Below, piece by piece: positions 42,698 through 57,558 of a stretch of DNA of 64,000 nucleotides (position 1 is the stretch's first letter; every line of letters begins with the position of its first letter). The notes under the pieces are model-generated. The model made no database searches and had not been told where the DNA came from. It saw only the letters and a list, made by a program, of their open reading frames with translations. This DNA is from Corallococcus sp. EGB (lineage in GTDB: Bacteria; Myxococcota; Myxococcia; Myxococcales; Myxococcaceae). Location of the stretch: the NCBI RefSeq assembly GCF_019968905.1, contig NZ_CP079946.1, forward strand, positions 6,669,356-6,733,355. The letters are read 5' to 3'. The translations under genes and the position numbers were made by a program.

Positions 42698-44569
42698 CTA
42701 CTCCTCCCGGGGTACGTTGAGCCGCTTGACCATCATCACGTCAAACAGCTGGATCGGCACGTAGCGGAGCTCGCGGGTGTCCTCCGAGTAGCCCTCCATG
42801 TTCTGCGGCCAGCCGAAGTCACGTGCGGCCCTGTCGTAGACCTCCATGCAAATAGGGAATGCTCGCCCATCGGGAAGGGTGGCCTCCGTGAAGAGGATCC
42901 GCGTGAGGCCGGGCGCGAAGATGACGCGACCCGAGACCTTCGAGCCCACCGGCAGTTGGCCGCGCGTCCGCCCCGCATAGTGGATCCGCCCCGTGATGGG
43001 GCCTTCACGGATCGCCATCTCCTTGCGGTCGCTTTCCTTCAGGAAGACGCCATCCCATGGGGTTCCCCACTCGAGCCTCAATGCCGCCATGGCTTCTTTG
43101 GCTCCGCGCGGGCACGGTTCGCCTTCATCCCTGCGGGAGTTGGCATTGCCGCCCGCGCAGGACACGCCCACGCACGCAGCGACGGCCGCTCCAGCGATCT
43201 TCCGCATGACGCCGCCATCCGCTCGCAGGGGCTTCACGGACGGCGTCGCAACCTCGGGGGGGACGGGTGGAGTCGGCTCCACCGCGGCCGCCACACCCGC
43301 ATCCGGGGAAGACGCCACCGCGAGCACGGCGGCATCGGGAAGACTCGGGGTTGGAGTCACGGACGAACTTCCTTTCTCAGACACAGGCGCAACGGCAGGA
43401 GGAGGCCGGTCCGGCGTCAGTCGCGCCAGCCCGAAGATCAAAAAGCCCAGCAGGAGTGCCCCCAGGCCGAGCACGGCCCCGGTGCGACGGCGCGGAACAA
43501 GCGGCGCGTCCCGCACGGCGGGCTGCACCGGAGGCTCCGGCTCCCTGGCACGGGCTGGCAACTCCGTGGAGCCCACGGGGAACTGCGACAGCGACACCAC
43601 GCCCCGGTCCTGACCGGACGCTTCCGCGTCCGCCGGGACGTCCAGCGACACCTTCCAATCCGCGTGACGCTTGTCCTTGGCCGCGTCCCAGAGCGCCTGC
43701 AGCAGCGTCTCCGTCCCCGAGTAGCGATCCTCGGGGCGCTTGGCGAGCAGCCGCATCGCGATGTCCGACAGGCTGGAGGGGACCTTGGGGTTGATGTCCT
43801 TCGGCGCGCGCGGCACCACCGTTTCGATGGCGGGCAGCAGCCGGTCGTAGGGCAGCCGCGGATCAAACGCGTAGCCGTCCGTCAGGGACTCGTAGAGCAG
43901 CGCGCCCAGCGCGTACAAATCCCCCGGGATGCCCGCGTCGAAGTTCGCCCCCGTCTTCCAGGAGCCCTCGCGCAGGAACGCCACGCACTCGGGGGGTAGC
44001 AGGTGCGGTGACGCGGGCGCCACGCCCACCGTCAGCGTGGAGGCGCCGGGAATCCGCGCCGTGCCCAGGTCGATGAGGATGGGCCGCTCATCCAGGCGCC
44101 GGATGAGCAGGTTGTCCGCCTTGAGGTCGCGGTGGTGCACGCCCCGGCGGTGGAGATCCGCCACCACCCGCACGACCTCCGTGTAAACGGTCAGCAGGTG
44201 CGCGGCCGTGGGCTTCACCCGCCAGCGCCACTCGTGGAACGTCTCGCCATCCACGAAGTCGGTGACGTGGAAGAGGTAGCCGTCCGGCGGCTCCGGCCAG
44301 CGATCCACGGCGTGAACTCGCGGCAGGTTGGGATGCGGCGCGCACGCGAGCAGCGCCGCCACCTCCCGCGCGAGCCGCCCGTTCACGTCCTCTTCGTCGC
44401 TGGCGTGCTGGTTCGCCGGACGCAACGCGAGCTTCAACGCGTAGACGTTCCCGCCCCGCTCCACCTTGAACACGCGGCCGAAGCCTCCCGCGCCGAGCGA
44501 CCCGACGACTCGCCAGGGTCCGACGTAGTGGCCGACTTCAAGCTGGTCCGGGTGGAGCGGCGTGGTCAT
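42698..44569 (-). CDS. Transmembrane serine/threonine protein kinase
   Basis: 623 residues. The kinase domain (residues about 18-300) has the glycine loop GSLGAGGFGRVFKV, catalytic-pair Lys46 (YALKLA), HRDLKADN at 146-153 and DLG at 167-169 in place of DFG, a common active variant in bacteria. A transmembrane helix lies at about 364-384 (GAVLGLGALLLGFLIFGLAR), followed by a Pro/Ala/Val-rich linker and an extracytoplasmic domain. That domain has a lipobox-like VGVSCAGG near residue 470 and beta strands (GPITGRIHYAGRTRGQLPVG, KVSGRVIFAPGLTRILFTEA). Myxobacteria encode many such kinases; this one is paired with DUF2381. Confidence 0.93.
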   Translation of the reverse strand: MTTPLHPDQLEVGHYVGPWRVVGSLGAGGFGRVFKVERGGNVYALKLALRPANQHASDEEDVNGRLAREVAALLACAPHPNLPRVHAVDRWPEPPDGYLFHVTDFVDGETFHEWRWRVKPTAAHLLTVYTEVVRVVADLHRRGVHHRDLKADNLLIRRLDERPILIDLGTARIPGASTLTVGVAPASPHLLPPECVAFLREGSWKTGANFDAGIPGDLYALGALLYESLTDGYAFDPRLPYDRLLPAIETVVPRAPKDINPKVPSSLSDIAMRLLAKRPEDRYSGTETLLQALWDAAKDKRHADWKVSLDVPADAEASGQDRGVVSLSQFPVGSTELPARAREPEPPVQPAVRDAPLVPRRRTGAVLGLGALLLGFLIFGLARLTPDRPPPAVAPVSEKGSSSVTPTPSLPDAAVLAVASSPDAGVAAAVEPTPPVPPEVATPSVKPLRADGGVMRKIAGAAVAACVGVSCAGGNANSRRDEGEPCPRGAKEAMAALRLEWGTPWDGVFLKESDRKEMAIREGPITGRIHYAGRTRGQLPVGSKVSGRVIFAPGLTRILFTEATLPDGRAFPICMEVYDRAARDFGWPQNMEGYSEDTRELRYVPIQLFDVMMVKRLNVPREE

Positions 44570-45003: not shown

Positions 45004-46161
45004 CTATTCGCTGTCGTCCGCCTCGGCCAGCGCGCGGGCGGCCTGCTCCCACTGGCCGCCCAGACGGGCTTCGGAGGCCAGGGCCTCGTCCCAGGAGGGA
45101 CCGTCTGGCAGCAGCCGCGATGCGTGCCGCAAGGCCAGGCGTTCCAGCGCTCGCGCTTCACACAGCCGGCGCAGCTCCAGTCCGTCGAGCCCGTTCGCGG
45201 CGAGGAAGGCGTCCCGGCGGGAGGCACGGACCTTCCGCGCGTCCCACCACGCGGCCTCCTCCTCGGCGATCTCCTCCTCTGTCGCTTCGAGACCCAGCGA
45301 CCGCACCCAGCCCGCGAGCAACGCGCGCCGCAGTCCCGCCTCCGCCCAGGCCTCCGCGTCCGGTGCGCCGCGCAGCACCTCCATCACGCGCCCGGAGTCC
45401 ACGACCTGCGAACCCACGCGCGTCACGTCCTCCATCAGGCGGCGGCGCCGCACCAGCGACGAGGGATTGCGCCGCGCCCCCGGCTGCGGTGGTACCGCGC
45501 GGCTCACGAACTCCGCGCCCGCGCGCACGCACTCGATGGCGTCCAGCTTCTTGAGGTCCTCCACTCCGCCCGCGAGCCAGGCGTCCCAGGCTTCGCGCAC
45601 GGGCCGGGTCCACGCGGGCTCCACGGCCTCGCGGATCCGCGTCCAGGTGCGCTCCTGGTAGAAGAGGCCCGCCGCCGCGTCCACCAGGGCCTGTGCACCG
45701 GAGCGGCTCAGCACGCGCGCCTTGCGTGCCTGCTCCGCCGCGTGCCGCACGTTCACCAGGGGCACGGTGAGGGGACGCCAGCCGTGTTCAGCGTCCGCGT
45801 GCAGCAGCGCCACCTCCGAGTCGTCCACCGCCACGCCGTCGCGATACCAGCCGAAGATGCGGCCCACGCCCACCATGCCGTGCGCGGACAGCTCCGCGGC
45901 GCGCAGCGCGCCCATGCTGCCTCCGCCGAACACGGCCACGCCTGCCTCCAGCGCCGCCAGCAGCTCGTGGTGCCAGACGGAAGGCTGCGCCTCGAAGACG
46001 CCGTCCACCAGCACCAATGCCCGGGGCTTGAGCGCCAGCGCCCGCCACACGTCCCCCTGCCGCGCGGGAGGCAGCACCGTGCACGGCGCGATCCGCCGTG
46101 CCTCCTCCGCCGGCAACGAGGGGCCCAGGAACACCACCAGGTCGTCCGTCCGCCGCTTCAC
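45004..46161 (-). CDS. TfuA-family protein, YcaO partner
   Basis: 385 residues from GTG 46161, which overlaps the ycaO stop codon in a GTGA junction and has GGAG at good spacing. The N-terminal half is the TfuA core: VVFLGPSLPAEEARRI, VLPPARQGDVWRALALKPRA, LVLVDGVFEAQPSVWHHELL and FGGGSMGALRAAELSAHGMV, with the conserved GWYRDGVAVDDSEVALLH. The C-terminal half is helical and variable. TfuA proteins assist YcaO enzymes in backbone thioamide formation, as in methyl-coenzyme M reductase and thioamide peptides. The coupled gene order strongly implies a working complex. The substrate is not known. Confidence 0.9.
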   Translation of the reverse strand: MKRRTDDLVVFLGPSLPAEEARRIAPCTVLPPARQGDVWRALALKPRALVLVDGVFEAQPSVWHHELLAALEAGVAVFGGGSMGALRAAELSAHGMVGVGRIFGWYRDGVAVDDSEVALLHADAEHGWRPLTVPLVNVRHAAEQARKARVLSRSGAQALVDAAAGLFYQERTWTRIREAVEPAWTRPVREAWDAWLAGGVEDLKKLDAIECVRAGAEFVSRAVPPQPGARRNPSSLVRRRRLMEDVTRVGSQVVDSGRVMEVLRGAPDAEAWAEAGLRRALLAGWVRSLGLEATEEEIAEEEAAWWDARKVRASRRDAFLAANGLDGLELRRLCEARALERLALRHASRLLPDGPSWDEALASEARLGGQWEQAARALAEADDSE

Positions 46162-47327
46162 AGGAGCTCCGACACGCGCATGCCCGGCACCACGACCTTC
46201 CACACATGAAGCCCGGGCACGGGCGCGTCCAGCGCGACGCCCGCCACCCGGCTGAAGCCCGCGCTCTCCAGCAGCGACAGCACCGCGCGCGCCTTCGCCG
46301 CCGGGGTCCTCGCGCGCCGGTCCGCCCCGTCCGGCATCGCGTCCACTGCGCGACGGGGCCGCACCTCCGCCAACGCCTGCGCGAACCCCAGCGTCGCTTC
46401 ACGGTCCGCCGCCGCCACGTCCTCGCGAGCACCGTGGATGTCCGTCAGCCGCGACTGCGCGGCCTCGAGCAGGGCCTTCAGCAGCGCCTCGTCCCGGTCC
46501 ATGGCGCACGCGTAGCCGGCCGTGAGCGGCACCGGTCCCTCATCCGCGTCCACCAGCACGGCCGCCGCCACGGGCAGCCCCACCCGTCCCCGCGTCCGGG
46601 GCGCGGGCGTCACGTCGAACAGGTAGGCGCGAAACCCGCGCTCCCGCAGCGCCGCACTCAGCGCGGCCGTGCGCGGCGCCCCGTCCACCAGCGTCTCCGG
46701 CCGCAACATCCGCCCCACCACGCCCTCCTCCGACCAGCCCTCTGGCAGCGCCCGCGCCAGCTGGTCCCGCTCCGTGGCCTCCAGCAACGCGTGCAGCAGC
46801 GCCGGCTCCGGCTCCGGATGCGCGCCGGAGCCATTCGTCGTCCACGCGACCGACACCGGCCCCAGTTCCACCGTCCCCGACGGCGGGCAGTACACGCCCT
46901 GCGCCGGCACCCAGACCCGCGCCTCCCCGTCCAGCGTGCGCGCCTCGCACCACGCCAGCCGCACCTGCGGCCCCGCGAGCCTTGGCGCCACCACCGCCCC
47001 CGCCGACCCGAGCGACTCCACGCCCCAGACCCCGTCTCCTGCCCGCTCCAGCTCCGCCCGGGTTCCCCAGCGCAGCCGCTCCGGCCGCACCGTCTCCGCC
47101 GCCCACAGCTCCGCCGTCTCGAAGAGCGCGCCCCGGGCCGCGGCCTCGAACCCGAGCCCCTTGCCGTTACATACCTGGAGCACGTGCCCCCCCGGACGCA
47201 CCGCGCAGGCAACCTCCACGCCAGTGCGGTCCAGGCCGGTGACCCGCGCGACCCGGGTCACGCCCAGGCCCCGGGCCAGGGCATCCAGAAAAGAAGGGGA
47301 GACAGAATCCATCAGGTCAGGCGACAC
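46158..47327 (-). CDS. YcaO-family ATP-dependent peptide-backbone-modifying enzyme
   Basis: 389 residues from GTG 47327 (AAGGTG upstream; ATG 47312 also possible). YcaO motifs are visible: CNGKGLGFEAAARGALFETA with the following helix, WTTNGSGAHPEPEPALLHAL, LEATERDQLARALPEGW, and PVAAAVLVDADEGPVPLTAG. These hold the ATP- and magnesium-binding acidic residues. The C-terminus (GLHVWKVVVPGMRVSELL) lacks the Pro-rich PxPxP tail of azoline-forming cyclodehydratases, which fits the TfuA-partnered thioamidating class. It is the first gene of a two-gene operon, divergent from a peroxiredoxin. No precursor peptide gene is seen nearby. Confidence 0.9.
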   Translation of the reverse strand: MSPDLMDSVSPSFLDALARGLGVTRVARVTGLDRTGVEVACAVRPGGHVLQVCNGKGLGFEAAARGALFETAELWAAETVRPERLRWGTRAELERAGDGVWGVESLGSAGAVVAPRLAGPQVRLAWCEARTLDGEARVWVPAQGVYCPPSGTVELGPVSVAWTTNGSGAHPEPEPALLHALLEATERDQLARALPEGWSEEGVVGRMLRPETLVDGAPRTAALSAALRERGFRAYLFDVTPAPRTRGRVGLPVAAAVLVDADEGPVPLTAGYACAMDRDEALLKALLEAAQSRLTDIHGAREDVAAADREATLGFAQALAEVRPRRAVDAMPDGADRRARTPAAKARAVLSLLESAGFSRVAGVALDAPVPGLHVWKVVVPGMRVSELL

Positions 47328-47433: not shown

Positions 47434-47910
47434 ATGATTGCCGTCGGAGACCTCGCTCCAGACTTCGCCGCGCTCGACTGCCACGGCCAGACCGTGCGCC
47501 TGTCGGAGCTGCGAGGCCGGCGCGTCGTGCTCTTCTTCTTCCCCCGCGCCTTCACCGTGGGCTGCACCATCGAGAACCGCGCGTTCCGGGACAACCACGA
47601 GCGGATCCGCGAGCTGGGCGCGGAGCTGGTCGGCGTCTCCGTGGACACGCTCACCACCCAGTGCGACTTCGCCGAACAGGAGGGCATCCACTTCGCCCTC
47701 CTGGGAGACGATGAGCGGCGGATCAGCCGCGCCTGGGGGGTGCTCTGGCCGGTCCTCAACATCGACCGGCGCGTCACCTTCATCATCGGCGCGGACGGCG
47801 TCGTCGAACACGTCATCCACCACGAGGTGCGCGTCTACCGCCACCTGGATGACGTGCTGAAGTACCTCCAGGCCCACCCCGCCCCGGGCGCCCCCTCCGC
47901 CTCCGCCTGA
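47434..47910 (+). CDS. Peroxiredoxin (PrxQ/BCP-like) lacking the usual resolving cysteine
   Basis: 158 residues from ATG 47434. The thioredoxin-fold core has the peroxidatic Cys44 in FPRAFTVGCTIENRAFRD. In PrxQ/BCP a resolving cysteine stands five residues later; here that position is Arg49. Cys77 (TTQC) or Cys16 could take the role, or the enzyme may be 1-Cys. The end contains the normal VTFIIGADGVVEHVIHHEV strand. It reduces hydroperoxides using thioredoxin or another thiol donor in the cytoplasm. It is divergent from ycaO. Confidence 0.88.
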   Translation: MIAVGDLAPDFAALDCHGQTVRLSELRGRRVVLFFFPRAFTVGCTIENRAFRDNHERIRELGAELVGVSVDTLTTQCDFAEQEGIHFALLGDDERRISRAWGVLWPVLNIDRRVTFIIGADGVVEHVIHHEVRVYRHLDDVLKYLQAHPAPGAPSASA

Positions 47911-52254: not shown

Positions 52255-55200
52255 TCACCGTCCGCGTGAGGCGACGCGCGCCCGGGGTTCTTCAGCGGAA
52301 AAAACCGACTTGAGCACCCGGCCCGTGGGCGTCTTGAGCTTCGCCACCTCGCGTGGCGTGCCCTCGCCCACGATGCGGCCACCGCCCTCGCCGCCCTCCG
52401 GCCCCAGCTCCACCACGTGGTCCGCCGCGGCGATGACCGACGGGTGGTGCTCGATCACGACCAGCGTGTCGCCCCGGTCCACCAGCCGGCCCATGAAGGT
52501 GATCAGCTTCTCCACGTCACCCAGGTGCAGGCCCGTGGTGGGCTCGTCGAGCACGTACAGCGTGGGCTCATGGCGGGACGTCGCCGTCAGCTCCGCGGCC
52601 AGCTTGAGCCGCTGCGCCTCACCGCCGGACAGCGTGTTGGAGCCCTGCCCCAGTTGCAGGTAGCCCACGCCCAGGTCCGCGAGGCACTCCAGCGGCGCGG
52701 CGACCTTGGGCAGCGCGCGGAAGACGTCCTTGGCCTCGTCCGCGGACAGGCGCAGCACGTCGCCCACGGTCAGGCCGTGGTAGCGCACCTCCAGCGTGGC
52801 GGCGTCGAAGCGCGCCCCGTTGCAGGCCTCGCAAGGCGTGACGACGTCCGGCAGGAAGGACATCTCGTGGGAGATGGCGCCCTGCCCTTCGCACACCTTG
52901 CAGCGGCCGCCGCTCGCCGTGTTGAAGGAGAAGCGAGCGGGCCCGAAGCCGCGGATCTTCGCCTCGGGGGTGGCCGCGAACACGCGGCGCAGCTCATCCC
53001 AGATGCCCAGGAACGTGGCGGGCACCGAGCGCGGCGTGCGCCCGATGGGCGACTGATCCACCGACAGCACCCGCTTGATGGACTCCGTGCCCTTGAGCGC
53101 GTCGAACGCGCCGGGCTTCGCGGTGACGAGTCCCAGCTTGTCGCGCAGCGCCGGGTACAGCACCTGCCGGATGAGCGTGCTCTTGCCGGAGCCCGACACG
53201 CCGGAGACGACGTTGAGCCGCCCCACCGGCAGCTTCAGGTCCACGCGCTGGAGGTTGTTGGCGCGAGCGCCCTTCAGCTCCACCCAGGCCTTGGGCTCAC
53301 CCCGGCCGGATGGAGGCCGCACCTGCGCGGCCCGCAGCGCCTGCGCGGTGGGCGAGTCCGACTCCAGCACCACGTCCGGCGTGCCCTCCGCCAGGATGTG
53401 GCCGCCACCCCGGCCGCCCGTGGGACCCAGGTCCAGGAGGTGATCCGCGGCGCGGATGGTGTCCGAGTCATGCTCCACCACCAGCACCGTGGAGCCCGTC
53501 TCCACCAGCGCGCGCAGGTTGTCGAGCAACCGGTGCGTGTCGCGCGGGTGCAGACCGATGGTGGGCTCGTCCAGCACGTACATCGCGCCGGTGAGGCCCG
53601 CGCCCAGCTGCGCGGACAGCCGCAGGCGCTGCATCTCGCCGCCGGACAGCGTGGCGGCGTTGCGGTCCAGGGACAGGTAGCCCAGGCCCACGCGCTCCAG
53701 GAACTCCAGCCGCCGCAGCATCTCCTGCCGCGCCGTCTCGCCCAGCAGCGCCCGGTCGCCCCTGAGCTTCCAGGTGCGCACCCGCGCGAGCGTGGCCGTC
53801 ACCGACGCCTGGACCACCTCGTGGTAGCGCGCGCCCTCCAGCCGCACCGCGCGCGGCACCGGGGCCAGGCGGGTGCCCCCGCACGTGCGGCACGGGGCCG
53901 TCTCGCCCTCGGCCATGGCGGAGGCGCCGCCCTGCACGCCGGTGCCCTCGCACGACTCGCAGCGGCCCTGCCTGGTATTGAAGGAGAACCAGCGCGGATC
54001 CAACTCCGGCACGGCGGTGCCGCACTTGGGGCAGGTGCGCTCGCTGGACAGGAGTGTCTCCGCCTTGCCCGTGCGCAGCTTCACCGCGCCCTTGCCCCAG
54101 TTGAGCGACGCCTCGAACAGCTCGCGCGGCAGCTTCGCGAGCCTGCCCTCGTACATCACGAGGTCGATGTCGTGCTCCTTCGTCTTCGCCAGGCGCGGCG
54201 GGTTGTCCGTGGACGCCAGCTCCCCGTCGACGATGGCTTGCGTGATGCCCGCGCGGGCCGCCGCGGTGAAGACATCCAGGTACGTGCCCTTGCGCGAGCG
54301 CACCGCGGGCGCCAGCACCTGCCCATCGCCCTTCGTCGCCAGCACCTGCGCGTAGAGCGCCGCGGGCGTGGTGGCGCCGATGGGCGTGTCGTCATGCGGG
54401 CAATGCGGCTCGCCGATCTTCGCGTACATGAGCCGCAGGTAGTGGGCCACCTCCGTGACCGTGGCCACGGTGCTCGTGGCTCCCGCGCGCGACGTGCGCT
54501 GCTCCAACGCCACGGTGGGCGGGATGCTGCTGATCCGCTCCACGTCCGGGCGCGGCAGCGTGGGCAGGAACTGCCGCGCGTACGGCGTCAGCGTCTCCAG
54601 GAAGCGGCGCTGCCCTTCCGCGAAGACGACGTCGAACACCAGCGAGCTCTTGCCGGAGCCACTCGGCCCCGTCACCACCGTCATCTTCCCCAGCGGGATG
54701 CGGCAGGACACGTCCTTGAGGTTGTGCTCGCGCGCATGCTCCACCTCGATGGCGGGCGGCGCCTCCTTCCCGGGGCGGCGCAGCTTCACCGCCTTCGCCA
54801 GCGGCTTGCCCTCGCCCCGGAGCGCGGCGGCGGTGGCGCTGCCCTGCGCCTTCGCCACGTCCGAGGGCGTGCCCTCCGCCACCAGCCGGCCACCGTCGCG
54901 GCCGCCCTTGGGCCCCAGGTCGATGATCCAGTCCGAGCCCTTCATCACCGACACGTCGTGGTCCACGACGATGACGCTCGCGCCCCGGTCCACCAGCGCG
55001 TGCAGGGACGCCATCACGTGGCGCACGTCCTCCGCGTGGAGGCCGGCGCTCGGCTCGTCGATGAGGAAGAGCGTGCCCTTCGCGTCGCTCGCCAGCGCGC
55101 GCGCCAGCTTCAGGCGTTGCGCCTCGCCGCCGGACAGCGTGGACAGGGGCTGGCCCAGGGGCAGATAGCCCAGGCCCAGCCGCTGCGCCGGCCCCAGCGT

Positions 55201-57558
55201 GCGCTTCAGCGCCGAGTCGTCACCGAAGTGCTGGAGCACCTCGTCCACCGTCATCTCCAGCACCTGCGCCACGCTGAAGCCCTGGTGGCGGACGGCGAGC
55301 ACCTCCTCCTTGAAGCGCCGGCCCCGGCACACCGCGCACAGCAGGGCCACGTCCGCGAGGAACTGCATCTCCACCGTCTCGTAGCCCTCGCCGCCGCAGG
55401 CCTCGCAGCGGCCCTTGTCCACGTTGAAGGAGAAGTGCGCGGACGTCAGGCCCCGCGCCTCCGCGTCAGGCTCCGAGGCGAAGCGCTCGCGCAGCCGGTC
55501 CCACGCCTTGGTGTACGTGGCCGCGTTGCCGCGCGACGTGCGCCCCAGCGGGGACTGATCCACGAAGGTGATGGCCTCCACCTGCGCCCCGCCCTCCACC
55601 GCCGCCACGTCGCCGGGGGCCTCCACGTCCTTCACGCCCAGCCCGCGCGCCAGGTGCCGGTAGAGCACCTCGTCCATCAGCGTGCTCTTGCCGGAGCCGC
55701 TGGGGCCGGTGATGGCGCACAGCACGCCCAGCGGCACGCGCACGGACACGTCCTTGAGGTTGTGCTCGCGCGCCTCGCGGATGACCAGCTCGCCCGTGCG
55801 GGCGCGCGGCGTGCGCGCCTCCTCCGCGCCACCGGACAGCATGCGGCCGGTGGGCAGGTCCTGCCGCTTCGCCAGCGCCTCCGGGGTGCCGTCGAAGCAC
55901 AGCTTGCCGCCATGGCGTCCCGCGCCAGGGCCCAGCTCCAGCACGCGGTGCGCGGAGCGGATGATCAGCGGATCATGCTCGATGACCAGCGCGATGTTGC
56001 CCCGGTCCGCCAGCTCCGCGATGGCCTCCGTGAGCGGCGGCACGTCCCCCGGGTGCAGCCCCACGGTGGGCTCGTCCAGCACGAAGAGCGCGCCGGTGAG
56101 CGACGTGCCCAGCGCCGCGGTCAGCGACACGCGCTGCGCCTCGCCACCCGACAGCGTGCGCGCGGGCCGGTCCAGCGTGAGGTAGCCCAGGCCCACGCGC
56201 TGCAGGTAGCGCAGGCGCGCGGACAGTTCGCGCCGAGCCAGGTCGCCCTGCCCCGTGAGTGTCTTCAGCCCGTCCAGCCGCGCCAGCGCGTCCGTCAGCT
56301 CCAGGCCGTGCCAGCCCGGCAGGTCCAGGCCGCCCACGCGCCACGCGCGCGCCTGCTCGTTGAGGCGCGCGCCGTGACAGGCCTCGCAGAGGGTGTACGC
56401 GCGGTAGCGCGCCAGCAGCACGCGCACGTGCATCTTGTATGTGCGGCTCTCCATCCACCGGAACCACGCGCGCACGCCCGGGTACACGCGGCCGCCGTCG
56501 TAGTCGCCCTCGCCCTGGAGCACCGCCTCGCGCTGGGCGGCGGTGAGCTTCTCCCACGGCTTGTCGAAGGGGATGCCCTTCTGCCGGCAGAAGCGCTGGA
56601 GCATCTCCCGCTCCCAGGTGGTGGACGGGCCGGACCACGGACGGATGGCCCCCTGCGCCAGGCTCAAGCCCGGGTTGGGGATCACCTTCCCCCAGTCGAT
56701 GCCGATGGTGCGCCCGAAGCCCCGGCACGGCGCGCACGCGCCCACCGGGCTCTGGTAGCTGAAGAGTCCCGGCCGCGCGGGCTCGAACTCACGCGCGCAC
56801 CTGGGACACACCAGGCCCCGGCGCAGCTTCGTCGGCGCGGTCTCTGGAAGAAAGAGCAGCGCCTCGCCCTCCGCGCGCGCCCACGCGTCCTCCAGCGCCT
56901 GGGTGACGCGGGACAGGTTCGCGTCCGTCAGCTTCACCCGGTCCACCACCACCTGCGCCACGCCCGCGGGGTCGGTGGCCTCGCCCGGCTTGAGCGTCTC
57001 CAGCTCCTTCACCTCGCCCTGCACCATCAGCCGGTGGTAGCCGTCCTTCAGCAGGCGGGCGCGCACGTCGAGGAACGCGGCCGTGTCGGGGATGCGCACG
57101 GGATACGTGAAGACAGCGGGCGCGTCCGGGTGCTCGCGCAGCGCGGCCTGCGCGGCCACGCGCGCGTCGGTGCGCACCGCCTCCAGGCCACAGTCCGGAC
57201 ACACCGGCATCGCCTCGCGGGTGAAGAGCGCGGAGAGGTACGGCTCCACGTCCGCCAGCGTCGCCACCGTGGAGCGCGAACTCTTCACCGGCGCGCGCCG
57301 GTCCACCGCGACGCCCGCGGCCACAGGCTCCAGCGCATCCATGGGCGGCCGCTCCAGCCGCTCGAGGAACTGCCGGGCATACGGGCTGAAGCTCTCCACG
57401 AAGCGGCGCTGGCCCTCCGCGTAGAGCGTGTCCAGCGCGAGGCTCGACTTGCCGCCTCCCGACACGCCGGTGACGCAGACGAACTCCCCTTCGGAGAGAT
57501 CGACGGACAAATCCTTGAGGTTGTGGGTGCGGGCGCCGACGAGGTGGGTCTTGTGCAT
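52255..57558 (-). CDS. uvrA: Double-length UvrA (two fused UvrA units, four ATPase cassettes)
   Basis: 1767 residues from ATG 57558, about twice the usual UvrA length of roughly 950. Four Walker A motifs are visible, near residues 31 (GVSGGGKSSL), 618 (GPSGSGKSTL), 964 (GPSGSGKSSL) and 1453 (GVSGSGKSTL), and the UvrA signature LSGGEAQR/LSGGEMQR occurs four times. Two complete sets of UvrA zinc-binding pairs are present (CPRCARE and CEACGGEG in unit one; CPKCG and CKVCEGQG in unit two). UvrA finds bulky DNA lesions as a dimer; a fused form could act as a built-in dimer. Chlamydiae are known to have a similar double-length UvrA. Whether a normal uvrA exists elsewhere cannot be seen. No strong ribosome binding site precedes the ATG. 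Confidence 0.93.
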   Translation of the reverse strand: MHKTHLVGARTHNLKDLSVDLSEGEFVCVTGVSGGGKSSLALDTLYAEGQRRFVESFSPYARQFLERLERPPMDALEPVAAGVAVDRRAPVKSSRSTVATLADVEPYLSALFTREAMPVCPDCGLEAVRTDARVAAQAALREHPDAPAVFTYPVRIPDTAAFLDVRARLLKDGYHRLMVQGEVKELETLKPGEATDPAGVAQVVVDRVKLTDANLSRVTQALEDAWARAEGEALLFLPETAPTKLRRGLVCPRCAREFEPARPGLFSYQSPVGACAPCRGFGRTIGIDWGKVIPNPGLSLAQGAIRPWSGPSTTWEREMLQRFCRQKGIPFDKPWEKLTAAQREAVLQGEGDYDGGRVYPGVRAWFRWMESRTYKMHVRVLLARYRAYTLCEACHGARLNEQARAWRVGGLDLPGWHGLELTDALARLDGLKTLTGQGDLARRELSARLRYLQRVGLGYLTLDRPARTLSGGEAQRVSLTAALGTSLTGALFVLDEPTVGLHPGDVPPLTEAIAELADRGNIALVIEHDPLIIRSAHRVLELGPGAGRHGGKLCFDGTPEALAKRQDLPTGRMLSGGAEEARTPRARTGELVIREAREHNLKDVSVRVPLGVLCAITGPSGSGKSTLMDEVLYRHLARGLGVKDVEAPGDVAAVEGGAQVEAITFVDQSPLGRTSRGNAATYTKAWDRLRERFASEPDAEARGLTSAHFSFNVDKGRCEACGGEGYETVEMQFLADVALLCAVCRGRRFKEEVLAVRHQGFSVAQVLEMTVDEVLQHFGDDSALKRTLGPAQRLGLGYLPLGQPLSTLSGGEAQRLKLARALASDAKGTLFLIDEPSAGLHAEDVRHVMASLHALVDRGASVIVVDHDVSVMKGSDWIIDLGPKGGRDGGRLVAEGTPSDVAKAQGSATAAALRGEGKPLAKAVKLRRPGKEAPPAIEVEHAREHNLKDVSCRIPLGKMTVVTGPSGSGKSSLVFDVVFAEGQRRFLETLTPYARQFLPTLPRPDVERISSIPPTVALEQRTSRAGATSTVATVTEVAHYLRLMYAKIGEPHCPHDDTPIGATTPAALYAQVLATKGDGQVLAPAVRSRKGTYLDVFTAAARAGITQAIVDGELASTDNPPRLAKTKEHDIDLVMYEGRLAKLPRELFEASLNWGKGAVKLRTGKAETLLSSERTCPKCGTAVPELDPRWFSFNTRQGRCESCEGTGVQGGASAMAEGETAPCRTCGGTRLAPVPRAVRLEGARYHEVVQASVTATLARVRTWKLRGDRALLGETARQEMLRRLEFLERVGLGYLSLDRNAATLSGGEMQRLRLSAQLGAGLTGAMYVLDEPTIGLHPRDTHRLLDNLRALVETGSTVLVVEHDSDTIRAADHLLDLGPTGGRGGGHILAEGTPDVVLESDSPTAQALRAAQVRPPSGRGEPKAWVELKGARANNLQRVDLKLPVGRLNVVSGVSGSGKSTLIRQVLYPALRDKLGLVTAKPGAFDALKGTESIKRVLSVDQSPIGRTPRSVPATFLGIWDELRRVFAATPEAKIRGFGPARFSFNTASGGRCKVCEGQGAISHEMSFLPDVVTPCEACNGARFDAATLEVRYHGLTVGDVLRLSADEAKDVFRALPKVAAPLECLADLGVGYLQLGQGSNTLSGGEAQRLKLAAELTATSRHEPTLYVLDEPTTGLHLGDVEKLITFMGRLVDRGDTLVVIEHHPSVIAAADHVVELGPEGGEGGGRIVGEGTPREVAKLKTPTGRVLKSVFSAEEPRARVASRGR

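Follow-up and report, generated by a model that had tools for sequence, protein, structure and literature searches.

An order-wide YcaO-TfuA gene pair of Myxococcales that may thioamidate a cellular protein encoded away from its locus

What does a YcaO enzyme modify when nothing resembling a substrate is encoded beside it? The question is raised by two genes, ycaO and tfuA, at positions 45004-47327 of a 64,000-nucleotide stretch of the Corallococcus sp. EGB genome (contig NZ_CP079946.1; hereafter, the window), which an earlier note, written from the sequence alone, had described as a coupled pair that should make backbone thioamides, perhaps on either a distant precursor of a ribosomally synthesized and post-translationally modified peptide (RiPP) or a house-keeping protein. 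The answer that we favor, and regard as reasonably probable, is that the pair is a stand-alone YcaO-TfuA thioamidase working in trans, with a cellular protein encoded on the chromosome as its target instead of a RiPP precursor. The coordinates in that note proved right, and the 4-bp GTGA overlap between the two genes suggests that they are translationally coupled. The pair and its parts lie as follows.

46158..47327, minus strand: ycaO, encoding a stand-alone YcaO of 389 amino acids, with a GTG start at 47327 and a TGA stop at 46158-46160.
45004..46161, minus strand: tfuA, encoding a TfuA of 385 amino acids, with a GTG start at 46161 and its stop at 45004-45006.
46158..46161, minus strand: GTGA, the 4-bp overlap of the ycaO stop and the tfuA start, read from the sequence.
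45496..46146, minus strand: TfuA core domain (residues 6-222), with the fold of Methanosarcina acetivorans TfuA (6xp8).
45007..45465, minus strand: all-helical C-terminal extension of TfuA (residues 233-385), from the predicted model.
46767..46781, minus strand: EATER motif of YcaO (E183-R187), from an alignment of 18 orthologs.
46455..46466, minus strand: EAAQ motif of YcaO (E288-Q291), from the same alignment.

Both proteins matched the whole of their Pfam profiles, YcaO to PF02624 (E 5.4e-53, profile positions 1-325 of 325, with the match ending at residue 384) and TfuA to PF07812 (E 1.6e-42, positions 1-119 of 119). Residues E183, E186, R187, E288 and Q291 of YcaO were invariant in all 18 aligned orthologs, in line with the catalytic glutamates and arginine expected of the superfamily; the EATER residues have a role in binding ATP and Mg. 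The first NCBIfam matches of YcaO and TfuA were the models for thioamidation of a glycine in McrA (TIGR03266 and NF033432). YcaO passed the generic YcaO kinase-domain model TIGR00702 (84.9 bits versus a cut-off of 75.65) and failed the azoline-type SagD model TIGR03604 (73.7 bits versus 219.25). Azoline-forming YcaOs of the thiazole/oxazole-modified microcin (TOMM) class carry a C-terminal PxPxP motif; the protein here ends in ...VPGMRVSELL and, as had been claimed, has no proline-rich tail.

Predicted structures pointed the same way. We compared AlphaFold2 models (mean predicted local distance difference test scores of 88.2 for TfuA and 82.7 for YcaO) with solved structures using VIA-align. 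The YcaO model matched the enzymes of Methanocaldococcus jannaschii (Z 37.4) and Methanopyrus kandleri (Z 32.8) best, followed by LynD (Z 29.8), 7u58, a YcaO with ATP-dependent peptidase activity (Z 26.9), and Escherichia coli YcaO (Z 24.1), and the core of the TfuA model superimposed on M. acetivorans TfuA with a Z of 29.7 (root-mean-square deviation 1.6, 215 residues aligned). Similarly, when a profile of the 18 YcaO orthologs was searched against solved structures, M. jannaschii MJ1094 came out on top (3.9e-25), followed by M. kandleri YcaO (8.4e-11), TruD (1.3e-5) and LynD (4.7e-5). Judged from families and folds together, thioamide formation, as the earlier note had it, is the best inference. 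The helical C-terminal extension takes this TfuA ~150 residues past the end of the 217-residue archaeal chain. Pfam gave no match to this segment in the source protein or in one ortholog, and in another ortholog a YukD match fell below the cut-off; a resemblance to SurA was considered and set aside as too weak (Foldseek 8qpv_F, E 0.57; VIA-align 8pzv_F, Z 6.6, root-mean-square deviation 6.6).

Among the called genes and the six neighbors scanned with Pfam, nothing beside the pair looked like a RiPP precursor, a protease for its leader, a dedicated transporter or a tailoring enzyme, in agreement with the earlier description of an orphan locus. Five of the six are a divergent AhpC/TSA peroxiredoxin (47434-47910), a protein kinase (42698-44569), a protein with sigma-70 regions 2 and 4, a zf-HC2 protein and an N4/N6 DNA methylase; the sixth matched no Pfam family. 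Further out, at 5-10 kb, lie a dicarboxylate symporter-like gene (38848) and an OPT-type gene (36326), both named by reading their sequences. We then laid out 61 related loci, 54 meant as orthologous and 7 as paralogous (2 of the 54 had no hit among called genes), and read their neighborhoods by eye. Besides YcaO and TfuA no gene family was common to all lineage groups, and a few neighbor families, such as a sigma-factor family and a DNA methylase, recurred in two. The search for conserved short open reading frames (ORFs) in relatives, which the earlier note had proposed, covered 5,699 ORFs of 20-150 amino acids within roughly 9 kb on each side of the pair at the 54 ortholog loci. Six clusters, with 107 members in all, spanned at least three lineage groups; 97 of these members fell inside the stretch covered by ycaO and tfuA, and the remaining 10 lay opposite one neighboring gene in core-genus loci, so we regard all six as shadow frames. 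No conserved precursor-peptide ORF emerged from this set.

The pair is widespread in its order. Among 145 genomes of the order Myxococcales, 113 had a YcaO match and 108 a TfuA match; because four of the YcaO-positive genomes (G101, G110, G112 and G113) carry only a paralog (YcaO identity 34-35%), we count the ortholog, by hand tally, in 109 genomes, one of them (G033) on the strength of a fragment (E 2e-15). By the same tally, 92 of 115 near-complete genomes of the order carry the ortholog, as do 60 of the 64 that belong to the core genera (g1, g2, g3, g5-g8 and g19). One genome (G072:C1:1617430-1618302) carries a second, partial TfuA (59% identity), a possible duplicate. Outside the order, 2 of 50 genomes of the phylum had a TfuA match, and the YcaO of one of these was 32% identical to the source copy and nearer to RiPP-like YcaOs. 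A scan of named genomes was ranked by a RiPP-like paralog and limited to its best 80 of 471 loci. By construction it would miss orthologs, so absence of the ortholog from its list is uninformative and its loci served only as an outgroup. In 79 of these 80 loci, a YcaO 27-34% identical to the source copy lay beside TfuA (the remaining locus, L136, had no YcaO ORF), and these 80 spanned records from Myxococcota, Pseudomonadota, Chloroflexota, Acidobacteriota, Actinomycetota and Bacillota.

Over eight loci, YcaO and TfuA were 63-92% identical to the source copies, compared with 69-96% for the sigma factor, 61-94% for an FKBP-like gene (seven loci) and 39-88% for the zf-HC2 gene, which changes faster than the pair. 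By this measure the two proteins appear to evolve at a rate like that of syntenic household genes. In all four core-genus genomes without the ortholog, the flanking genes keep their order. There the peroxiredoxin and kinase genes are separated by 450-510 bp; in a pair-carrying relative that shares the genus code, by about 2.8 kb. A tblastn search found no remnant of the pair in any of the four (best E 0.10 for TfuA and 0.76 for YcaO). With the flanks intact in these genomes, no neighbor was lost along with the pair.

The YcaO phylogeny that the earlier note had called for was only partly decisive. In a quick tree of 91 YcaO rows the 48 orthologs formed one clade (Shimodaira-Hasegawa-like approximate likelihood ratio test, 99), as did the 15 orthologs in a more careful tree of 37 rows (100/100). 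The ortholog clade, in which the core genera form a single clade, was separate from the RiPP-like YcaO-TfuA clade, which mixes phyla. The pair has probably been kept mostly by descent within Myxococcales. The wider placement is less settled: the careful tree contained one archaeal row (M. jannaschii), which in the best tree grouped with azoline enzymes (96/91), apart from the orthologs, and approximately unbiased (AU) tests rejected neither a grouping of the orthologs with azoline enzymes (p-AU 0.19) nor one with the McrA-type enzyme of M. jannaschii (p-AU 0.079).

Order-wide conservation without a conserved neighbor or small ORF, together with the household-like rate and the clean absence from four intact sites, leads us to favor a protein substrate encoded elsewhere, in keeping with the earlier note, in which both suggested substrates lie outside the neighborhood. 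If the pair is such a thioamidase, YcaO would use ATP to activate a backbone amide of its target, and attack by sulfide on the activated amide would then yield a backbone thioamide. According to the accessible text of a 2026 Biochemistry paper (PMC13063428), YcaOs that form thioamides in habitats not rich in sulfide tend to rely on a thiocarboxylated carrier of the ThiS type, with TfuA acting as the hydrolase. By that route TfuA would supply sulfide, or release it, from a ThiS-type thiocarboxylate; the source genome has three ThiS/MoaD-family matches. The helical C-terminal domain of TfuA may help to hold the target. The thioamide chemistry, the sulfur route, the protein substrate and the role of this domain are all inferred.

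A gene order in one group of genomes suggests where a substrate might be sought. In nine genomes from three genera of family f3, which we take to be Anaeromyxobacter-type, tfuA is followed by a SUI1/YciH-like gene (PF01253, eIF1-like; four of the nine were scanned singly and the rest through an order-wide scan).

Genomes with the order ycaO-tfuA-sui1: G013, G014, G015, G017, G018, G021, G022, G024 and G025.
Loci with the order ycaO-tfuA-sui1: L055 (G014), L056 (G018), L061 (G017), L062 (G015), L066 (G022) and L075 (G024).

With starts picked by coding score, the sui1 reading frame probably begins 1, 4 or 73-76 nucleotides inside the end of tfuA, and a GGAGG- or GAGGAG-like site precedes this start in eight of the nine. 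These observations raise the tentative and rather unlikely possibility that the pair thioamidates the SUI1/YciH translation factor, a homologue of eIF1, perhaps at its basic, glycine-rich GRGGK loop. If so, SUI1 would be a bacterial cell protein whose thioamidation depends on TfuA, and the translation machinery would contain a second thioamide; a literature search, with most subscription journals outside its reach, found nothing on YcaO together with SUI1. Over the 145 genomes SUI1 and the pair occurred together in 101, the pair alone in 8, SUI1 alone in 22 and neither in 14 (odds ratio 8.0, p 2.8e-5; hand tally, with two unlisted genomes assigned by elimination), and the corresponding counts for near-complete genomes were 88, 4, 17 and 6 (p 0.004). 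A control, a VKOR-like gene, also associated with the pair (odds ratio 3.5, p 0.002; hand tally), and because such co-occurrence is confounded by lineage and by reduced genomes we do not count it as support. A SUI1 signature that tracks the pair was sought by eye in 90 rows, part of the order's SUI1 proteins, and discarded: no residue separated the 20 genomes labelled as pair-less from the 70 with the pair. GRGGK is the loop sequence in 65 of the 90 rows, and variants (GRRGK, GRNGK and others) occur also in pair-carrying genomes; GRGGR appears only in the pair-less G027, G028 and G029, while the four pair-less genomes of the Myxococcus group retain GRGGK. In four other f3 genomes (G023, G030, G035 and G036) SUI1 and TfuA lie on different contigs, and in the f1 loci that were read SUI1 mostly adjoins a VKOR-like gene (named by reading). 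When 205 loci were scanned with the SUI1 profile, matches came from six with the order ycaO-tfuA-sui1 and from one that had been fetched for its SUI1; the arrangement is thus confined here to one family.

Several observations weigh against a cellular-protein thioamidase. Both McrA-glycine models, first matches as they were, scored below their cut-offs (96.9 of 365 bits for TIGR03266, 180.4 of 235.2 bits for NF033432). A precursor that is unrelated between lineages, or that lies beyond the ~9-kb flanks, would escape the small-ORF test. The four core-genus genomes and others without the pair indicate that it is dispensable, and YcaO identity across families, at about 44-60%, is ordinary. In a tree of orthologs alone, monophyly was rejected for family f1 (p-AU 0.008) and not for family f3 (p-AU 0.12), several f1 genera (for example g4, g12, g25 and g26; loci L073 and L080-L087) having a divergent version in conflict with the family, so transfer, hidden paralogy or long-branch error is present. 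Finally, the row nearest to the orthologs in the careful tree was not the archaeal enzyme but the YcaO of a Mycetohabitans plasmid locus (92/82), near which TfuA, ThiS, MoeB and a Nif11-type RiPP precursor are encoded; this join has modest support and lies between long branches.

The last of these points also counts for a trans-acting RiPP pathway, in which the pair would modify a precursor encoded elsewhere in the genome, an explanation that we consider possible but on the whole unlikely. Other YcaO-TfuA pairs have been treated as RiPP clusters, in the accessible parts of PMC8120280 and PMC6511847, distant precursors are missed by 10-kb searches (PMC4603692, likewise in part), and at the Streptomyces, Rhizobium and Mycetohabitans loci used for comparison short genes are annotated beside tfuA or ycaO. 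Such a pathway fits poorly with a pair that is order-wide, changes at a household-like rate and has no conserved local precursor that we could find; the RiPP-like paralogs that these genera also carry have a patchy distribution and do not sort by phylum.

Within the cellular-protein reading, a special case has the ribosomal protein uL16 as the substrate, as it is for E. coli YcaO. In the literature consulted, uL16 is the one thioamidated bacterial cell protein (PMC13063428), the sui1 operon points toward translation, and of the source genome's other two YcaOs one is LynD-like and the other only 28% identical to E. coli YcaO over 92 amino acids (E 0.09). Yet the low isoelectric point of that YcaO group (4.4) is not matched here (5.6, with a median of 6.6 over 48 orthologs), and the extra domain of E. 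coli YcaO is absent from this 389-residue protein; we consider uL16 a very improbable substrate. We think it just as doubtful that YcaO does other chemistry (azoline or amidine formation, or peptide cleavage) with TfuA merely an activator: YcaO enzymes are chemically diverse, the grouping with azoline makers survived its AU test and a peptidase-active YcaO is among the fold matches, but the partner has the archaeal TfuA fold, YcaO lacks the proline-rich tail and best fits methanogen YcaOs, and no cyclodehydratase partner was seen among the called genes or the six scanned neighbors.

The source genome, a single 9.43-Mb contig, has one TfuA and three YcaOs. The second YcaO (G000:C1:221477-222529, L002) lies beside metallo-beta-lactamase-fold-like and TIM-barrel sugar-isomerase-like genes (named by reading), and the third (G000:C1:5472054-5473010, L001) is an azoline-type enzyme that forms part of a longer fusion and shares 47% identity with LynD over 335 amino acids. 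In other genomes of the set, the RiPP-like paralog pair (L088 in G113, L089 in G110 and L091 in G104) adjoins a conserved 1134-residue kinase-like protein, a protein of 216-232 residues and a methyltransferase-like gene (kinase and methyltransferase named by reading). Elsewhere in the window, 52255-57558 encodes a 1767-residue protein that resembles two UvrA copies in one chain.

How, then, does the pair compare with known systems? It most resembles the methanogen YcaO-TfuA that makes the thioglycine of McrA: both consist of two stand-alone genes with an overlap of ycaO stop and tfuA start and no precursor peptide beside them, the methanogen enzymes give the best fold matches, and they act in trans on a protein, as we propose here. 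The overlap and largely vertical descent of the methanogen pair are described in the accessible text of an eLife 2017 paper (PMC5589413). Unlike the methanogen system, the pair here has the extra ~150-residue helical domain on TfuA and falls below both NCBIfam cut-offs, and McrA itself (PF02249) had no match in the source genome, although two methanogen controls were positive. E. coli YcaO likewise has no small ORF beside it, shares the overall fold and has a household substrate, whereas it lacks TfuA, is more acidic and is larger; BLASTP between it and the source YcaO gave only a 51-residue match (E 1.9). Its thioamidation of uL16 is called a second protein case in the accessible text of PMC13063428, which expects more protein substrates and places no TfuA near uL16-type YcaOs. 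That finding puts out of date the earlier note's claim that a thioamidated cell protein in a myxobacterium would be a new case, and we lower the novelty of the pair to match; what would still be new is modification of a bacterial cell protein by a pair of the TfuA type. RiPP-type loci in Streptomyces, Rhizobium and Mycetohabitans have the same two enzymes, usually adjacent, but their plasmid examples adjoin short peptide and tailoring genes and their clade is patchy, whereas the pair here stands alone and is order-wide. Its class is the 'TfuA-associated non-TOMM YcaO' of Cox et al. 2015 (PMC4603692), for which the accessible text gives the substrate as unknown and, where searched, has no word beginning 'myxo'; literature listings on YcaO with Myxococcus xanthus or on myxobacterial thioamides, with the same limited reach into subscription journals, held no report on the pair. 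The pair is thus a variant, spread through the order, of an enzyme type already described. An order-wide bacterial pair without a peptide precursor suggests a further, TfuA-dependent protein thioamide beyond those of McrA and uL16, the only two made on proteins by YcaO in the literature consulted, and the four pair-less genomes and the translation-factor operon are concrete places in which to look for its substrate.
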